Assembly (NCBI GenBank): GCA_001820175.1
Contig: MHOT01000016.1
Location: 1-38,580, forward strand
DNA: 38,580 nucleotides
From: Candidatus Staskawiczbacteria bacterium RIFCSPHIGHO2_02_FULL_42_22
Lineage (GTDB): Bacteria; Patescibacteriota; Minisyncoccia; Minisyncoccales; Staskawiczbacteraceae
Direction of reading: 5' to 3'
Shown here: positions 10,539 to 38,495 of the stretch, one piece after another
How the letters are laid out: each line of letters begins with the position of its first letter
Numbering within the stretch: position 1 is the first letter of the stretch
Notes under the pieces: generated by a model
Told to the model about the DNA's origin: nothing
Database searches by the model: none
What the model saw: the letters and a program-made list of their open reading frames with translations, nothing else
Translations under genes and position numbers: made by a program

Positions 10539-12089
10539 TTAATACCCCAAAAATTCCGGTTTTTGGCGTTTTTTATAGAAAAACCTTATCAAGACAAAAA
10601 GTGCTGCATAATAGACCACTACAAAAATCCAAGAAATGTGGCCCACGTCCTTGGCCGCCCAGGGTTTTGAAAAAATATCCAATACCCAGATAAAATACGT
10701 CAAAAGCAATGAGCAGGGTAAGGTCAACATGGCGCCCATCCACCAAGCCACCGCTCCACATATTGAAAGTAGTAATCCTAAAATAGTTAACGCTTCCACT
10801 ACCGGTAAAGCCAACAAATTAGTAATTGGGGCAACTAAAGAAATTCGGCCAAAATTATATACAATAATCGGCAACGTTATTATTTGGGCGGCCAGGGTAA
10901 TGGAAAGCATATCCACCAACACGGCTGCGTGTCCCTTGGTAATGGTTTTTAATAATAAGGCCACCATGGGCTTGATATGAATAATGCCCAGCGACGCCAA
11001 GAAAGATAATTGAAACCCGATATCATAGTAAAGCAACGGCGGGTTTTGAAGCAACATCAATGCCCCGGCCAATACTAATATGCGGCTTGTGGTATTCTGC
11101 CTCCCCAATTTTTGAGCCAACAACGCAATGCACCCCATGATGGCCGCTCGCACCCCGGAAGCGGGAAACCCGATGAGCGCAATGTATACCGCAATGAAGG
11201 CGACGGCAAGGTAAAATGCCTGGCCGCGCCAAAACCCCAAAAATAGTAAAAAAGTGGTGCAAAGAGAAATCAAAACAACGATATTGCTTCCCGATACTGC
11301 CGTCACATGGCTTAATCCAGTAACGTTGAACTGGTCTTTTAAGTCCTTTGGCATTTCTTTATCGCTACCAAAAACCATCCCCTTTAAAATAAAACTGTGG
11401 GGCGGGAAAAGATATTGGTCAATAGACGCAATCAACTTTGATTTGAGCCACAGTATTTTTTCATACCCATAGGTTATGGGAGTGTAAGAATGTTTTTTGG
11501 CGAGCAATTGCACAGCGGGATAATCCATTACCGAATAAATTCCCTCTTTTAGCAAATAATTTTTATAGTTAAATTCCTCAAACGCCGGCGGGGTCTTTAA
11601 TTTCCCAACGAGTTTCACTTGATCCAAATAATGGTAATGTGCCTCAGAGAAATTTCCTACGGTAATCAGCAGTTTGCCTTGCACTGGCGCCTCCTGACCA
11701 TTGATTACCAATTTTTCCGTTGATATGAGAAGTTTTTGCAGATTATTTCTTATATCCGGCTCCCCCGCAATAAATCCAATAATGGCAACTTTTTCGGGAA
11801 AATCATTGAACATTCTTAGCGGATCATTTGCTATAGTAAATTCAAAAATTTGAAAACGCAAAACTCCCAATACTAAAAAAAGAAGGCAAAAACCAATAAT
11901 CGTAATGTAGTATTTTTTATGCAAAAAAGAAAAAATAATCGCCACAATTCCTATAACAAAAAAACCGAGCAGAAAATAGGTTACTCGGTTTTTTGCATAT
12001 TCCGGCAATGTGGCATACATGCCCGAAGCGATGCCTATCCCCGCCACAAAAGAAACGGCAAGGCAAAAGAGTGTTTTTGAAGGGGTCAT
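10539..12089 (-). CDS. comEC: ComEC/Rec2-type DNA-uptake channel without the beta-lactamase-like domain
   Basis: The 516-residue membrane protein has the N-terminal soluble DUF4131-like part (about residues 60-200) followed by the Competence domain: VTGLSHVTAVSGSNIVVL near 255-272, then GFPASGVRAAIMG and YDIGFQLSFLASLG, the classic ComEC signatures, then more spans. It stops about 30 residues after the last span. Full-length family members of about 750 residues add a metallo-beta-lactamase-like nuclease domain, which is absent here. Role: passage of single-stranded DNA across the membrane; DprA in the same window would receive the DNA. It is last in a ftsA-ftsZ-comEC minus-strand series. Confidence 0.92.
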   Translation of the reverse strand: MTPSKTLFCLAVSFVAGIGIASGMYATLPEYAKNRVTYFLLGFFVIGIVAIIFSFLHKKYYITIIGFCLLFLVLGVLRFQIFEFTIANDPLRMFNDFPEKVAIIGFIAGEPDIRNNLQKLLISTEKLVINGQEAPVQGKLLITVGNFSEAHYHYLDQVKLVGKLKTPPAFEEFNYKNYLLKEGIYSVMDYPAVQLLAKKHSYTPITYGYEKILWLKSKLIASIDQYLFPPHSFILKGMVFGSDKEMPKDLKDQFNVTGLSHVTAVSGSNIVVLISLCTTFLLFLGFWRGQAFYLAVAFIAVYIALIGFPASGVRAAIMGCIALLAQKLGRQNTTSRILVLAGALMLLQNPPLLYYDIGFQLSFLASLGIIHIKPMVALLLKTITKGHAAVLVDMLSITLAAQIITLPIIVYNFGRISLVAPITNLLALPVVEALTILGLLLSICGAVAWWMGAMLTLPCSLLLTYFIWVLDIFSKPWAAKDVGHISWIFVVVYYAALFVLIRFFYKKRQKPEFLGY

Positions 12090-24876: not shown

Positions 24877-25746
24877 ATGGAAGACATTAGGGAAGTAAAA
24901 ATTACTGATAAAAATTACCCAAAACTCCTTAAAAAAATTTCTACTGCGCCCAAAGTATTGTACTATAAAGGAGTACTACCTCAAGAAAATGAAATTTGTA
25001 TTGGAGTAGTTGGCACACGACGACCATCGGTGTATGGACAGCAAGTAACCCTCCAAATTACGGGCGAATTAGCCGATGCGGGCATTACCGTTATTTCGGG
25101 CATGGCGCCCGGCATTGATACCTATGCCCATACCGCATGTGTTGAAAAAGGTGCGCGCACCATTGCGGTGCTTGGTACCGGACTTAATGAAAAAAGCATT
25201 TATCCGCAAGAAAATTTGGAACTATCACGAAATATTATTAAATACGGTGGATGCCTCATTTCAGAATTTAAGCCCGGCACTCCCGGTTACCCCAGTAATT
25301 TTGCCCAAAGAAACCGTATTATTTCAGCGTTAAGTTTAGGTGTCTTGGTAGTTGAAGCAAAAGAAAAATCCGGGTCGCTGATTACCGCCGGATACGCCAA
25401 AATCCAAAAGAAAAAATTATTTGCCATTCCGGGGCCCATTTATACCTTAAACGCCAAGGGTCCCAACAAATTAATAAAAGAAGGTGCGACATTAGTGGAA
25501 AGCGCACAGGATGTTTTGGATGTTTTAGGACTGGAGCCGCGAGGCGCGGCGCACGCGCCGCGCCTCGCGGCGGAAAACGAAACCGAAAAAGTAATTCTGC
25601 AAATATTAGAGCAAGAAGCATTATATATTGATAACATCATAGCGGCGACCAAATTAAGCCCTTCCCAAATTGCCACCACGCTTGCGTTAATGGAAATTTC
25701 GGGTAAAATACGAAACCTGGGCGGCAATGTTTACTCTTTAAACTAG
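24877..25746 (+). CDS. dprA: DprA/Smf, RecA loader for incoming DNA
   Basis: The 289-residue protein has the Rossmann-like DprA domain: GVVGTRRPSVYG near 43-54, SGMAPGIDTYAH near 74-85, FAQRNRIISALS near 142-153, and EAKEKSGSLITA near 160-171. The C-terminal winged-helix domain (about 235-289) ends in GKIRNLGGNVYSLN. Between them residues 221-232 (PRGAAHAPRLAA) are encoded by a 34-bp perfect GC palindrome, foreign in composition to the rest. The gene's stop TAG lies on the first bases of a TA-bounded element. A degenerate copy of the last coding bases recurs at 26572-26660. Function: protection of single-stranded DNA in transformation, pairing with ComEC. Confidence 0.95.
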   Translation: MEDIREVKITDKNYPKLLKKISTAPKVLYYKGVLPQENEICIGVVGTRRPSVYGQQVTLQITGELADAGITVISGMAPGIDTYAHTACVEKGARTIAVLGTGLNEKSIYPQENLELSRNIIKYGGCLISEFKPGTPGYPSNFAQRNRIISALSLGVLVVEAKEKSGSLITAGYAKIQKKKLFAIPGPIYTLNAKGPNKLIKEGATLVESAQDVLDVLGLEPRGAAHAPRLAAENETEKVILQILEQEALYIDNIIAATKLSPSQIATTLALMEISGKIRNLGGNVYSLN

Positions 25747-34235: not shown

Positions 34236-34808
34236 TTATCTTATCTTTTTTTGCAACTTCGAAGTTATATTAATTATTTTTGATGGAACGCCTTTTTTCA
34301 TATCACCGCCATCAATGATTGCCTTGATGCTCGTTTCTTTGGAAAATATTTTTATAATATCTTTGATATTTTGCAAAGGCGGCTGACCCGATACATTTGA
34401 AGATGTCTGGACCAATGGCCGATCAATTTTTTTTAAAAGATTGCTTAAAAAAGGGTACCTAGGAATCCTTATCGCAACCGTTCTTTCATCAAGTCCATAT
34501 AATACGATACCTGGTTTTCTTTTTAAAATAAACGTATATTCCCCCGGCCAGAACTTCTTTAACATTTTTCGTTGCTGTTTATTTATTATAGCCATTTCTT
34601 CTGCCATGGCAATATTTCTAACAAAAAGTGAAAGGGGTTTTTTGCGCGGCCTTTTTTTTATTTTATAAATAGCGTCAACGGCCCTTTCGTTGGTCGCATC
34701 TGCCAAAAATCCGTATACGGTATCCGTTGGACAAATAACCACGCTGCCTTTTTTTAGGAGCGCGGCGGCTGCAGCCGCCGCGCGCAATGATGGCTTAATT
34801 ATTTTCAT
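34236..34808 (-). CDS. tsaC: TsaC/YrdC/Sua5-type threonylcarbamoyl-AMP synthase
   Basis: The 190-residue protein has the YrdC signature: CPTDTVYGF near 26-34, IYKIKKRPRKKPLSLFV (KxR and following) and the VRIPRYPFL segment, then SSNVSGQPP. It makes threonylcarbamoyl-AMP for the t6A modification of ANN-decoding tRNAs. The residues RAAAAAAALLKKG near the N-terminus are encoded over a perfect 24-bp palindrome (34760-34783). It overlaps the upstream nucleotidyltransferase gene by four bases, so the two are probably translationally coupled. Confidence 0.93.
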   Translation of the reverse strand: MKIIKPSLRAAAAAAALLKKGSVVICPTDTVYGFLADATNERAVDAIYKIKKRPRKKPLSLFVRNIAMAEEMAIINKQQRKMLKKFWPGEYTFILKRKPGIVLYGLDERTVAIRIPRYPFLSNLLKKIDRPLVQTSSNVSGQPPLQNIKDIIKIFSKETSIKAIIDGGDMKKGVPSKIINITSKLQKKIR

Positions 34809-35533
34809 TGTTTTAAAAGACCTGAAAATTTTTCGATATCTTCAGGACGACCAAAATCCATCCAGTTATCCTTTACCATTTTAACCTTGACTTTACCGTC
34901 TTTTGCTAGCAATGAAATCACATCAGTAATTTCGTATTCTCCGCGAGGGGATTTTTCAATCAGTGGCAATTTTTCGAAAACATCAGAAGTGAATTTGTAT
35001 AAACTGGTATTGATTAAGTCCCCTACAAATTCTTTTGGTTTTTCTATAATTTCTTTTAAAAATTCTCCGTCAGTTAGCAATACTCCAAACTTTTCAGGGT
35101 GATCATTTTTTAAACCGGCAACGTAGCAATATTGATCATCAATGTTCATTAATCTTAAATCTTCAACCGAATAAAAATTATCTCCTACCAGCGATATAAA
35201 TTGATCATTGCCGACAAAATCCCTTACGCACTTTAAGGGACAAGCCGTACCATATTCTTTTTCTTTGGGACCCAGCACTTCAAACTGACTAACTATATCA
35301 ATACTACAATCATGATCTTTTTTATAACCATCCACAAATTCCTTCATTAAATCTTGCTTGTATCCTACTACCAGCATGATTTGCTGATATCCGGCATCCA
35401 AAATATTATCTAACAAATATGCCAAAAACGGCCGCTGATTTATTTCTATTAAATGCTTTGGTTTATCTTTTGAAAGTTCCTGCATGCGCGTCCCTGGCCC
35501 AGCCGCAGAAATAACCACTTTTTTAATTGGCAT
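34805..35533 (-). CDS. sugar-1-phosphate nucleotidyltransferase-like protein
   Basis: From ATG at 35533 it is 242 residues. The nucleotide site GPGTRM and the following KPKHLIEINQRP are the NTP_transferase signature, and SLVGDNFYS supplies the metal-binding Asp. IEKPKEFVGDLINTSLYKF is the usual sugar-site block. It would activate a sugar phosphate with dTTP, UTP or CTP. The longer frame (35548, GTG) only adds five residues. Overlaps tsaC by four bases. It could provide the donor for the glycosyltransferases at 2018 and 7697; that is inference. Confidence 0.85.
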   Translation of the reverse strand: MPIKKVVISAAGPGTRMQELSKDKPKHLIEINQRPFLAYLLDNILDAGYQQIMLVVGYKQDLMKEFVDGYKKDHDCSIDIVSQFEVLGPKEKEYGTACPLKCVRDFVGNDQFISLVGDNFYSVEDLRLMNIDDQYCYVAGLKNDHPEKFGVLLTDGEFLKEIIEKPKEFVGDLINTSLYKFTSDVFEKLPLIEKSPRGEYEITDVISLLAKDGKVKVKMVKDNWMDFGRPEDIEKFSGLLKQ

Positions 35534-35548
35534 AGCCCACAGCGACAC

Positions 35549-35630: not shown

Positions 35631-38495
35631 TTATAATACTATATTAATCAATTTATCTGGTACGAAAATGATTTTTTTTACCTCTTTCCCGGCTACCCAG
35701 GGTTTTATTTTTTCGCCCCGCAGCACCATTTCTTCGACTTCCTTTTGATCGATACCATGTACTACTTCTATTTTGTCGCGCATTTTGCCATTAATTTGTA
35801 TCACTAAAACTACGTTTTGGCTTGGCAATAATTTTTGGTTGTACACCGGCCACGGTTGCAGATGAATCGACGTTTTATTTTTCAACACGTTCCGCCAAAG
35901 TTCTTCAGTGATATGTGGAGCAAACGGAGCCAAAAGTTTAAGAAAATCTTCGTACTGCGATTTTGAAATTTCATGACCCTCAAGTTCGTTTAATAATTTC
36001 ATTAAGTCGCTTACGCCCGTGTTGAAATTCAAATCACTGATGTCAAAACCAATTCCTTTATCATTTGCCTTAATGTATTTATTGATGATGCCCGCCGCCG
36101 CGATATTTTTTTTGGTCTTGGGGCTATAGCGGCCAACAAAATTCCAAACGCGGTTTAAAAACCGATACACTCCAGTGATGCCGCCGGGGTTCCACGAGCC
36201 ACCCTGTAAATAAGGTCCCATGAAGGCCAAATACATCCTAACCGCATCAGCCCCGTATTTTTTTACTTCACTATCGGGATCAATGACATTTCCGCGCGAC
36301 TTGGACATTTTCTGGTTATCGGAACCAAGAATGATTCCCCGGTTGCGCCGGTTTAAAAATGGTTCGTCAAAATCAATATATCCGAGGCGCTTTAATGCTT
36401 TGGTAAAAAATCGGGAATACAAAAGGTGCATGGTGGTGTGTTCCGCTCCGCCAAGATAGGAAAACACCGGCAACCATTTTTTAATCTTTTCTTTTGAAGC
36501 GAATATCTTTTTATTAGTTGGATCAGTATAACGCATAAAATACCACGAAGAATCAACAAACGTGTCCATGGTATCGGTTTCCCGCTCTGCCGCGCCTTTA
36601 CATGTTGGACATGTTGTTTTGAGCCACTTTTCGGCTTTAGTCAAAGGGGACTTCCCGCCATCAGTTGGCTTAAAATCTTTAAGGGGCGGCAGCTCAACCG
36701 GCAACTCTTTTTCGTTGACTGGCTGATAGCCACAGGTTACACAATGCACCATAGGTATTGGCACACCCCAGTACCGTTGGCGCGACAGTATCCAATCACG
36801 GAGACGATAGGTTTTTTTAAAATCAGCCATTCCTTTTAATTTCAATTCTTCCACAATTTTTTTCTTGGCTATCATTGAATCCATGCCATTGAATTTCCCG
36901 GAATGAATTAAAACTCCTTCGCTCTCAAAAGCGTGGGCCTCATTAAAAAACCGATCCAGCCAGATTTCGTATTCACTGCACTTAATGTTTTTATCTTTTT
37001 GTAATTCCTGCCACGAAAGCCAAACCGGTTCGTGTTTTTCTTTTTCATCAGCAGAAATTTCTTGGCGGTCTTCATTTTCTAGTTCAAACACCAAACAGGT
37101 AAACAGAGCATTGCGATTTTCATCTTTATGGTTGGCATAAAAATGCGACTGGACCGGTCCACCCAGGGTTTTTATATATCTTACATTTTTATATCCGCTT
37201 TCTTCTAAAATTTCCCGCTTGGCAGCAAGCATACCATCTTCGCCTTCCTCAACACCGCCGGTGATAAAGGTTGTCCAGGGGAATTTTTTCCACTTCAAAC
37301 ACAATACTTTTTTATCTTTTGAATTAATCACAATAGCTTGAATGGCATTTCGTTCTATCGTTTTTTTATCGGCCCGCGGCGGATCGTGCTGGTCAACCAC
37401 TTTTGGAATAATGACCTCCTTTATCGGCAACTGGTATTTTTTGGCAAACTCAAAATCCCGTTTGTCGTGTGCGGGGACAAACATTACGGCTCCGGTCCCG
37501 TAACTTCCTAACACATAATCGCCCACCCAAACAGGAATTTTTTCGTTATTAGCGGGGTTGGCGGCAAAAATTCCGGCGTCCACACCGGTTTTTTCTTTGG
37601 CCTCCTGCCGTTCAAGTTCTCGTTTTGCCAAACTTCTCTTGATATAATCTTGCGTATGATCACCTGCCTGCCAACCGGCACTTACCCAAGTTTGCGCAAG
37701 TTCGGGAGAAACTACCAGAGCAGTAACACCAAAAACCGTATCGGATCTTGTTGTGAAAGTTTCTATATATTTTGAAAATTGAAAATTGAAAATTGAAAAT
37801 TTTATAATCGCTCCTTCCGAGCGGCCAACCCAATTTTTCTGCCCAAGTTTTGCGGACTCCTGCCAATCGAGAGCATCAAGTCCGTCAATAAGCTCGTCTT
37901 TAAATTCGGTAATTTTAAACATCCATTGGGCCAGGTCTTTTTGCATGACTTCAGATTGGCATCGGTCACATTTGCCGCCAACCACCTGCTCGTTAGCCAG
38001 GACTGTTTTGTCTTTTGGACACCAATTCACTTTTGTCGTGGCGCGATAGGCCAGGCCTGCTTGGCAGAACTTAATGAACATCCATTGGGTCCAGCGGTAA
38101 TAATCGGGGTCTATGGTACTCACCTTGCGCGACCAATCAAACATCGCCCCCATGGACTTTAATTGGCGCGTCATGTAAGCAATATTTTGCCTGGTCCACT
38201 TTTCAGGATGAATATCGTGTTTTATGGCGGCGTTTTCGGCCGGCAAACCGAAGGCATCAAAACCCGTGGGATAGAGCACATTATACCCTTTCATGCGAAG
38301 GTAGCGGGCTTTAATGTCGGGCAAGGCAAAAGCGTACCAGTGACCAATGTGAAGGTTTCCCGATGGATAGGCAAATTCGGTAAGGAGCATTACATTCTTT
38401 TTTCTGGCAACCACATTCTTGGTTGCAAAAAGTTTCTTATGCTCCCAGTATTTCTGCCACTTTTTTTCAATTTTTTGAGGGTTGTATTTTTGCAT
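35631..38495 (-). CDS. leuS: leucyl-tRNA synthetase with a Nudix domain inside the editing domain
   Basis: The 954-residue protein has HIGH at 49-52, KMSKS at 729-733, a zinc-type CPKD...CDRC pair near 159-179, the CP1 editing domain (FTTRSDT near 247, the editing Asp in FVPAHDKRDFEF near 345, VLIHSGKFNGM near 528-538) and the C-terminal anticodon and tail domains. Between VIIPK (about 365) and AHAFESEGVLI (about 521), residues about 380-515 form a full Nudix hydrolase domain with an intact box GGVEEGE...REILEESGY at 413-434. Usual bacterial LeuRS is about 860 residues. In addition residues 232-242 (KFSIFNFQFSK) come from GAAAATT repeats. The editing-site Pro of TTRPDT is Ser here. Confidence 0.96.
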   Translation of the reverse strand: MQKYNPQKIEKKWQKYWEHKKLFATKNVVARKKNVMLLTEFAYPSGNLHIGHWYAFALPDIKARYLRMKGYNVLYPTGFDAFGLPAENAAIKHDIHPEKWTRQNIAYMTRQLKSMGAMFDWSRKVSTIDPDYYRWTQWMFIKFCQAGLAYRATTKVNWCPKDKTVLANEQVVGGKCDRCQSEVMQKDLAQWMFKITEFKDELIDGLDALDWQESAKLGQKNWVGRSEGAIIKFSIFNFQFSKYIETFTTRSDTVFGVTALVVSPELAQTWVSAGWQAGDHTQDYIKRSLAKRELERQEAKEKTGVDAGIFAANPANNEKIPVWVGDYVLGSYGTGAVMFVPAHDKRDFEFAKKYQLPIKEVIIPKVVDQHDPPRADKKTIERNAIQAIVINSKDKKVLCLKWKKFPWTTFITGGVEEGEDGMLAAKREILEESGYKNVRYIKTLGGPVQSHFYANHKDENRNALFTCLVFELENEDRQEISADEKEKHEPVWLSWQELQKDKNIKCSEYEIWLDRFFNEAHAFESEGVLIHSGKFNGMDSMIAKKKIVEELKLKGMADFKKTYRLRDWILSRQRYWGVPIPMVHCVTCGYQPVNEKELPVELPPLKDFKPTDGGKSPLTKAEKWLKTTCPTCKGAAERETDTMDTFVDSSWYFMRYTDPTNKKIFASKEKIKKWLPVFSYLGGAEHTTMHLLYSRFFTKALKRLGYIDFDEPFLNRRNRGIILGSDNQKMSKSRGNVIDPDSEVKKYGADAVRMYLAFMGPYLQGGSWNPGGITGVYRFLNRVWNFVGRYSPKTKKNIAAAGIINKYIKANDKGIGFDISDLNFNTGVSDLMKLLNELEGHEISKSQYEDFLKLLAPFAPHITEELWRNVLKNKTSIHLQPWPVYNQKLLPSQNVVLVIQINGKMRDKIEVVHGIDQKEVEEMVLRGEKIKPWVAGKEVKKIIFVPDKLINIVL

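Follow-up and report, generated by a model that had tools for sequence, protein, structure and literature searches.

The editing domain CP1 of leucyl-tRNA synthetase (LeuRS) has acquired the insertions I1ae to I4ae in archaea and eukaryotes; these are described as structural elements, I4ae lines the editing pocket, and no enzyme domain is named among them (PMC7229842). Among the 213 events of a 2026 survey of nested domains, the LeuRS editing domain likewise figures solely as the inserted part and not once as the host (PMC13114784). This view is contradicted by leuS of Candidatus Staskawiczbacteria bacterium RIFCSPHIGHO2_02_FULL_42_22 (Patescibacteria), which is contained in a stretch of 38,580 nucleotides of contig MHOT01000016.1, here called the window, and encodes a LeuRS whose editing domain hosts a complete Nudix domain. 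No published Nudix-LeuRS was found in searches of open-licence PMC papers. An earlier note on this DNA, made from the letters alone, likewise named no characterised example.

The window LeuRS is the only one in the genome (821 kb, 30 contigs) to exceed the family cut-off, scoring 921 bits against TIGR00396 leuS_bact, for which the equivalog cut-off is 548.4, and it possesses the HIGH and KMSKS signatures together with the threonine-rich and HDxRD editing-site motifs of bacterial LeuRS. When aligned with the Thermus thermophilus enzyme (1h3n), residues 1-362 correspond to reference residues 1-362 and residues 521-725 to 375-580, so that a CP1 loop of 12 residues is replaced by about 158 residues; the LeuRS-specific domain (T. 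thermophilus residues 581-636) is missing from the window protein in the same alignment. The additional segment follows the CP1 strand that comes next after the HDxRD helix and precedes the GVLxxSG strand, and its match to NUDIX (PF00293; E 4.9e-12, 46.4 bits against a cut-off of 21.1) is flanked by the editing-domain match PF13603, which starts at residue 220. The Nudix box follows GX5EX7REUXEEXGU throughout, with GVEEG and DGMLAAK as the two spacers and REILEESGY as the closing stretch. NUDIX is the sole Pfam match in the insert at E ≤ 1, and no intein or endonuclease domain was found there. The profile match, the 1h3n alignment and homologues with the insert at the same site all agree with the earlier note, which had described a complete Nudix domain in CP1 at 36920-37400 (residues 380-515), essentially the limits given in Table 1, and had thought hydrolase activity plausible from the intact box; the retention of the box across homologues suggests that the domain is probably active.

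Structure prediction, which the earlier note had proposed, gives the same picture. Modelled alone with 38 related inserts in AlphaFold2, the insert is predicted to fold by itself as a Nudix domain, with a mean predicted local distance difference test score (pLDDT) of 94.2, and the full LeuRS modelled with 34 relatives reached a pLDDT of 90.3 and a predicted template modelling score (pTM) of 0.78, aligning to LeuRS structures with Z 47.7 to 1h3n. Foldseek returned 490 matches to the modelled insert at E ≤ 0.001, with Nudix proteins at the top. The best fold in VIA-align was 2azw (Z 17.8, root-mean-square deviation 2.4 over 146), which was also the best match in a profile search (E 4e-13). The ranks below it were tied at Z 14-15 and included RppH, MutT1 and other subfamilies, and because of these ties the structure library gave no function for the insert. 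None of the named Nudix equivalogs in NCBIfam (RppH, DHNTP diphosphatase, NudE, YtkD) came near its cut-off, the best scores being 20.8 against 103 and 20.1 against 116 bits. By these profiles the window protein is both a Nudix superfamily member and a bacterial LeuRS, and falls in no named Nudix equivalog tested.

Profile searches with the insert, close to a Nudix profile search that the earlier note had proposed, recovered the same insert at the same site in dozens of LeuRS. When the insert and its LeuRS flanks were searched as one profile, about 50 of 379 genomes sampled across the phylum (about 13%) had, among the matches listed, a full-length match in a frame the size of LeuRS; in the class, such frames were hit by the insert-only profile in about 68 of 383 genomes. 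Nearly all of the frames fetched were verified as LeuRS with Nudix in the slot. Within the window's GTDB family, Nudix-LeuRS occurs in 3 of 36 genomes, all from one genus. The patescibacterial carriers include, by record name, Berkelbacteria, Buchananbacteria, Taylorbacteria, Magasanikbacteria, Moraniibacteriota, Paceibacterota, Saccharibacteria and Gracilibacteria, and beyond the phylum there are several metagenome-assembled genomes (MAGs) of uncultured Bacilli, Clostridia and Erysipelotrichaceae. The gracilibacterial LeuRS (L226), with Nudix in the CP1 slot, has an open reading frame (ORF) that stays open only when TGA is read as glycine; by eye it also contains a further insert resembling an alpha/beta hydrolase. 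One bacterial-type Nudix-LeuRS (L215) is found on a contig labelled Pacearchaeota, through either transfer or a binning error, and a Bacillales MAG (G844) has two differing Nudix-LeuRS genes (C28:559-3363 and C36:22736-25552), reflecting duplication or a mixed bin.

The recurrence of the insert at one site in many independent assemblies, including the single-contig genomes that carry L107, L111 and L116, excludes assembly error, and a decaying or degenerate insertion is rejected by intact boxes and a low ratio of nonsynonymous to synonymous substitution (dN/dS). Both circumstances that the earlier note held would overturn its proposal, a chimeric assembly and a box degenerate in all homologues, are thereby excluded, and we give chimerism or decay next to no weight. 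The same insert at the same site in dozens of LeuRS, folded by AlphaFold2 on its own, lies far beyond chance; the observation is confirmed, and ordinary explanations for it are excluded.

Exchange of the cassette comes as a greater surprise than its presence in the gene. Among 171 LeuRS collected, a set enriched for carriers that gives no frequency estimate, 112 have Nudix in the slot, 51 have a short slot and 8 have other content, and in a tree of the LeuRS bodies the Nudix-bearing and Nudix-free members are interleaved. At a body identity of 70% or more there are 120 pairs, and in many of them the Nudix domains differ much more than the bodies do, so that bodies sharing 77-84% identity can hold Nudix domains sharing only 28-42%; body and Nudix identities are, for example, 0.84 versus 0.42 (L092/L096), 0.83 versus 0.42 (L304/L307), 0.79 versus 0.28 (L309/L310) and 0.78 versus 0.28 (window/L010). 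The borders in discordant pairs are sharp, with identity dropping near residues 345-360 and recovering at about 529. Reverse discordance is also found, with Nudix and body identities of 0.80 versus 0.56 (L008/L067) and 0.63 versus 0.47 (window/L070), and the best Nudix partner differs from the best body partner in 90 of 112 proteins. In approximately unbiased (AU) tests, the body data reject the window's Nudix clade {L007, L068, L069, L070, L071}, where L007 is the window (p 6e-6), and the Nudix clade {L008, L067, L191, L193} (p 3e-63); conversely, the Nudix data reject body clades f220 (p 8e-6 and 9e-4), f74 (p 3e-4) and {L095, L113} (p 0.006). A uniformly fast Nudix domain as the sole source of discordance was considered and rejected as incompatible with the concordant groups L097/L098/L100 and L079/L081/L084, the reverse discordance and the AU rejections, except inside f98 and f222, where it may still apply. 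Taken together, the sequence comparisons show a Nudix domain that behaves as a cassette, moving between LeuRS genes independently of host sequence, with AU support in several groups. The window's genus also contains two unrelated LeuRS body types (L007, L010 and L132 versus L008 and L131), and LeuRS itself has therefore been transferred. No conserved gene neighbourhood of Nudix-LeuRS was evident among 12 loci.

The slot is not reserved for Nudix. It is empty in close relatives of carriers (L139 versus L277, body identity 0.84; L132 versus the window, 0.77), and is occupied elsewhere by a methyltransferase (L162; body identity 0.77 to L094, Pfam E 8e-11), by Nudix plus HAD (L115), or by a domain of about 120 residues, possibly two related ones, with nothing in Pfam above cut-off (L134, L145, L161; less similar in L170, L171, L175). 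In the Nudix-free L131 (G009) and L132 (G007) of the window's genus the CP1 segment is shortened and without the GVLxxSG strand, as if a deletion had exceeded the cassette. Outside the slot, LeuRS inserts comprise a second or third Nudix (L109, L112, L198), Ham1/ITPase (L114, L300, L304), HAD, serine hydrolase (L197, L199, L214, L311), ASCH (L151, L153), DUF559 (L134) and a nucleotidyltransferase-like domain (L114). The most elaborate examples are the 1795-residue L114 (G150), which combines HAD, Ham1-like stretches, Nudix and nucleotidyltransferase-like domains, and L198, which bears three Nudix domains with a serine-hydrolase-like and a HAD domain. Nudix is also found in other synthetases, namely a valyl-tRNA synthetase (ValRS; L117, same subfamily) and an isoleucyl-tRNA synthetase (IleRS; L119, divergent), the latter (G423) with Ser_hydrolase and His_Phos_1 as well.

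The same Nudix subfamily is found free-standing (L009, L118, L219) and joined to free fragments of the LeuRS editing domain in proteins of 281-301 residues from gut Bacilli and Clostridia MAGs (L218, L220, L221), whose genomes encode an ordinary LeuRS separately. The Nudix box of these proteins is intact, while the editing motif HDKRD is aligned with HIEKD in L218 and reads alike in L220. A ruined editing motif beside an intact box suggests that Nudix is the part retained, with CP1 apparently serving as a scaffold. Neighbouring genes include tRNA_edit, ASCH and GNAT near L218 and Ham1 near L221, partly families found inside LeuRS elsewhere.

Guest and host both appear to be constrained. Across 42 full-length Nudix-LeuRS the Nudix residues G417, E432, E436 and G438 do not vary, and conservation reaches 90% or more at R431 and E435 (frame numbering, which runs 4 ahead of the protein), and the catalytic glycine, two glutamates and glycine are invariant among 48 diverse inserts. 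The slot carries the motif REUxEExG in 108 of the 115 LeuRS having a Nudix match. Nudix dN/dS in the five closest pairs, 0.013-0.18, resembles that of the LeuRS body, and close-pair values altogether span 0.01-0.22. On the host side, T249, R250 and D252 are kept in 111 of 112 Nudix-LeuRS, while T253 and the editing-site residues H343, D344, R346 and D347 are kept in all 112; HIGH and KMSKS are conserved too. With catalytic and editing residues intact and dN/dS low, both partners therefore look functional on this evidence.

Table 1. Features of the window leuS gene and of free proteins that pair a LeuRS editing-domain fragment with Nudix
Feature	Position	Strand	Residues	Remarks
leuS, LeuRS with inserted Nudix domain	35631..38495	minus	954 aa	single uninterrupted ORF
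HIGH signature	38340..38351	minus	49-52	synthetic site
Threonine-rich editing motif FTTRSDTVFG	37728..37757	minus	247-256	
Editing-site motif HDKRD	37455..37469	minus	343-347	
CP1-slot cassette	36939..37409	minus	about 363-519	1h3n alignment and identity breaks at about 345-360 and 529
Nudix domain proper, PF00293	36990..37346	minus	384-502	profile match, fold agrees
Nudix box GGVEEGEDGMLAAKREILEESGY	37191..37259	minus	413-435	complete
X-loop pair F452-Y453 and nearly invariant K457	37125..37142	minus		site of Nudix specificity motifs
KMSKS signature	36297..36311	minus	729-733	synthetic site
Free LeuRS-editing-domain fragment + Nudix	L218:2689-3543	plus		Pfam finds both parts
Free LeuRS-editing-domain fragment + Nudix	L220:2713-3555	plus		Pfam finds both parts
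Free LeuRS-editing-domain fragment + Nudix	L221:2623-3525	plus		Pfam finds both parts

On the 3' side of leuS, at 34236-35548 on the minus strand, are a gene for a sugar-nucleotide-type nucleotidyltransferase and a Sua5/YrdC gene, which possibly form one operon with it.

We prefer to think of the insert as an active, autonomous Nudix passenger that an essential gene carries in a slot open to exchange, engaged in nucleotide house-cleaning and taking no part in aminoacylation or editing, and consider this account rather probable. The sequences themselves show the architecture, the intact catalytic residues, purifying selection, cassette exchange, the other occupants and the free-standing retention, whereas catalytic activity, transformation as the route and a benefit from the chassis are inferred; the substrate class is a guess. 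The gene would thus produce a full LeuRS bearing a Nudix pyrophosphohydrolase within a single CP1 loop, which acts as a slot that may be empty or hold another Nudix, a methyltransferase, the 120-residue domain or Nudix with HAD. Transfer would most probably start with DNA uptake and end with homologous recombination, for which the conserved LeuRS sequence on both sides could supply the arms; ComEC-type Competence (10584-11378, minus) and DprA (24883-25500, plus) domains are encoded on the same contig. A phage or plasmid carrier of the cassette was not indicated, as tblastn gave no match in phages or plasmids and 5 weak, partial matches in viral contigs. LeuRS would serve as an essential and constantly expressed chassis, and the passenger probably hydrolyses a nucleoside polyphosphate by itself. 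Independence from LeuRS is suggested because the subfamily is also present in ValRS, at other LeuRS sites and free-standing, including free forms with a ruined editing motif.

Several points weigh against this account. Most embedded copies are at one LeuRS site, with only one ValRS and one divergent IleRS seen elsewhere, and the cassette may confer a LeuRS-linked benefit. Several standalone relatives nest within the LeuRS-borne group, making their independence secondary. The outcome of the AU test on {window, L010} depended on the set, with p 0.07 in one and 0.008 in the other, a single Nudix origin is not rejected within f98 and f222, and part of the discordance, for example in these two groups, may come from fast evolution; the AU-tested groups were moreover chosen after inspection of the data.

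If the Nudix domain were coupled to its host, it would hydrolyse by-products of the aminoacyl-adenylate at their source, chiefly diadenosine tetraphosphate (Ap4A) and other dinucleoside polyphosphates (ApnN) made from adenylate and ATP. LeuRS itself is not known to make much Ap4A, which counts against such coupling. Aminoacyl-tRNA synthetases do make ApnN, and Nudix enzymes including RppH and MutT1 cleave Ap4A (PMC7705103). Counted by distance from the end of the box, the residue at +17 is F or Y for 102 of 120 boxes, with F452-Y453 at +17/+18 in the window, recalling the X-loop tyrosine that accompanies activity on ApnA (PMC5389931). Proline, which is conserved in the X-loop of ADP-ribose Nudix pyrophosphatases, is not common to the set at +16 to +18, the positions tallied. 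The many similar folds include Ap4A-binding RppH and a diadenosine polyphosphatase, and the embedded form is overwhelmingly in LeuRS. However, CP1-fragment plus Nudix proteins are retained independently of LeuRS, the slot also takes unrelated domains, no named Nudix equivalog reaches its cut-off, and the fold ranks below 2azw are tied; coupling to LeuRS appears unlikely. An ApnN role for an independent passenger, by analogy a reasonable but weak guess, would draw on the same +17 aromatic and the making of ApnN by synthetases.

The cassette could alternatively be a resistance module that detoxifies nucleotide-like LeuRS inhibitors or other small-molecule weapons, with an arms race driving exchange. 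Cassette turnover and the mixture of small-molecule enzymes in LeuRS do resemble diversifying selection, and nucleotide inhibitors of LeuRS occur in nature, as with TM84 of agrocin 84 (PMC5059758). Yet inhibitor, producer and resistance are all hypothetical here, dN/dS in close pairs indicates constraint instead of positive selection, and recombination without any selective advantage might leave a conserved gene looking just like this; we judge this explanation improbable. A regulatory sensor, binding a nucleotide signal such as an ADP-ribose-like compound and tuning editing or charging without catalysis, is if anything more improbable still. It would suit the mobile CP1 domain, and noncatalytic Nudix domains of multidomain proteins are often ligand-binding (PMC5389931), but catalytic residues that a pure sensor would not need are kept almost everywhere, and close relatives have an unrelated domain or an empty slot. 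The conserved catalytic glutamates favour an enzyme over a pure sensor. The earlier note's interpretation stands in part: a complete and probably active Nudix domain in CP1, without characterised precedent, is supported, whereas clean-up of leucyl-AMP-like compounds or sensing of ADP-ribose beside the editing site is not, given the subfamily's presence in ValRS, other LeuRS sites and free proteins, the unrelated slot domains and the exchange of cassettes. Leucyl-AMP is, in addition, a mixed anhydride and not a nucleoside-diphosphate-X.

Returning to the autonomous passenger, a broader and more tentative proposal, which we think possible, is that class Ia tRNA synthetases of Patescibacteria, LeuRS foremost, are modular chassis with slots whose cassettes (Nudix, Ham1/ITPase, HAD, serine hydrolase, ASCH, methyltransferase, nucleotidyltransferase and His-phosphatase) are inserted, and swapped by recombination, via the conserved host gene, an essential gene thereby acting as a platform for capture and exchange of nucleotide house-cleaning or defence enzymes. 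Extra synthetase domains are usually seen as slow-won, lineage-specific accessories; here close relatives exchange, replace or lose one while the host stays intact. This raises testable questions about the substrate of the passenger, about how repeated swapping of a domain is tolerated in a gene that the cell cannot lose, and about whether essential genes serve streamlined genomes as stable carriers open to exchange. There is also a warning for annotation, as passenger enzymes are hidden beneath the label leucine--tRNA ligase.

Among known systems, bacterial LeuRS (TIGR00396; 1h3n, Escherichia coli) shares its whole body, HIGH, KMSKS and editing residues with the window protein, but has the short CP1 loop and the LeuRS-specific domain where the window has the Nudix insert and no such domain. 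Of free-standing Nudix proteins, the MutT/Nudix protein 2azw from Enterococcus faecalis is closest in both fold and profile, at 19% identity and under a title that names no function. RppH, MutT1 and the Ap4A hydrolases have the fold, the Nudix box and the X-loop aromatic in common with the insert, but are only about 16-20% identical to it, and the insert scores far under the NCBIfam RppH cut-offs and sits in a synthetase. Compared by description of position, I1ae to I4ae similarly add sequence to the CP1 surface, and I4ae too follows the conserved aspartate of the editing site (PMC7229842), but they are not described as enzymes, whereas the window insert is a Nudix domain. The nested insertions surveyed in 2026 share the placing of a small domain within a larger host (PMC13114784); here, in contrast, the LeuRS editing domain is itself the host, and its guest is exchanged.

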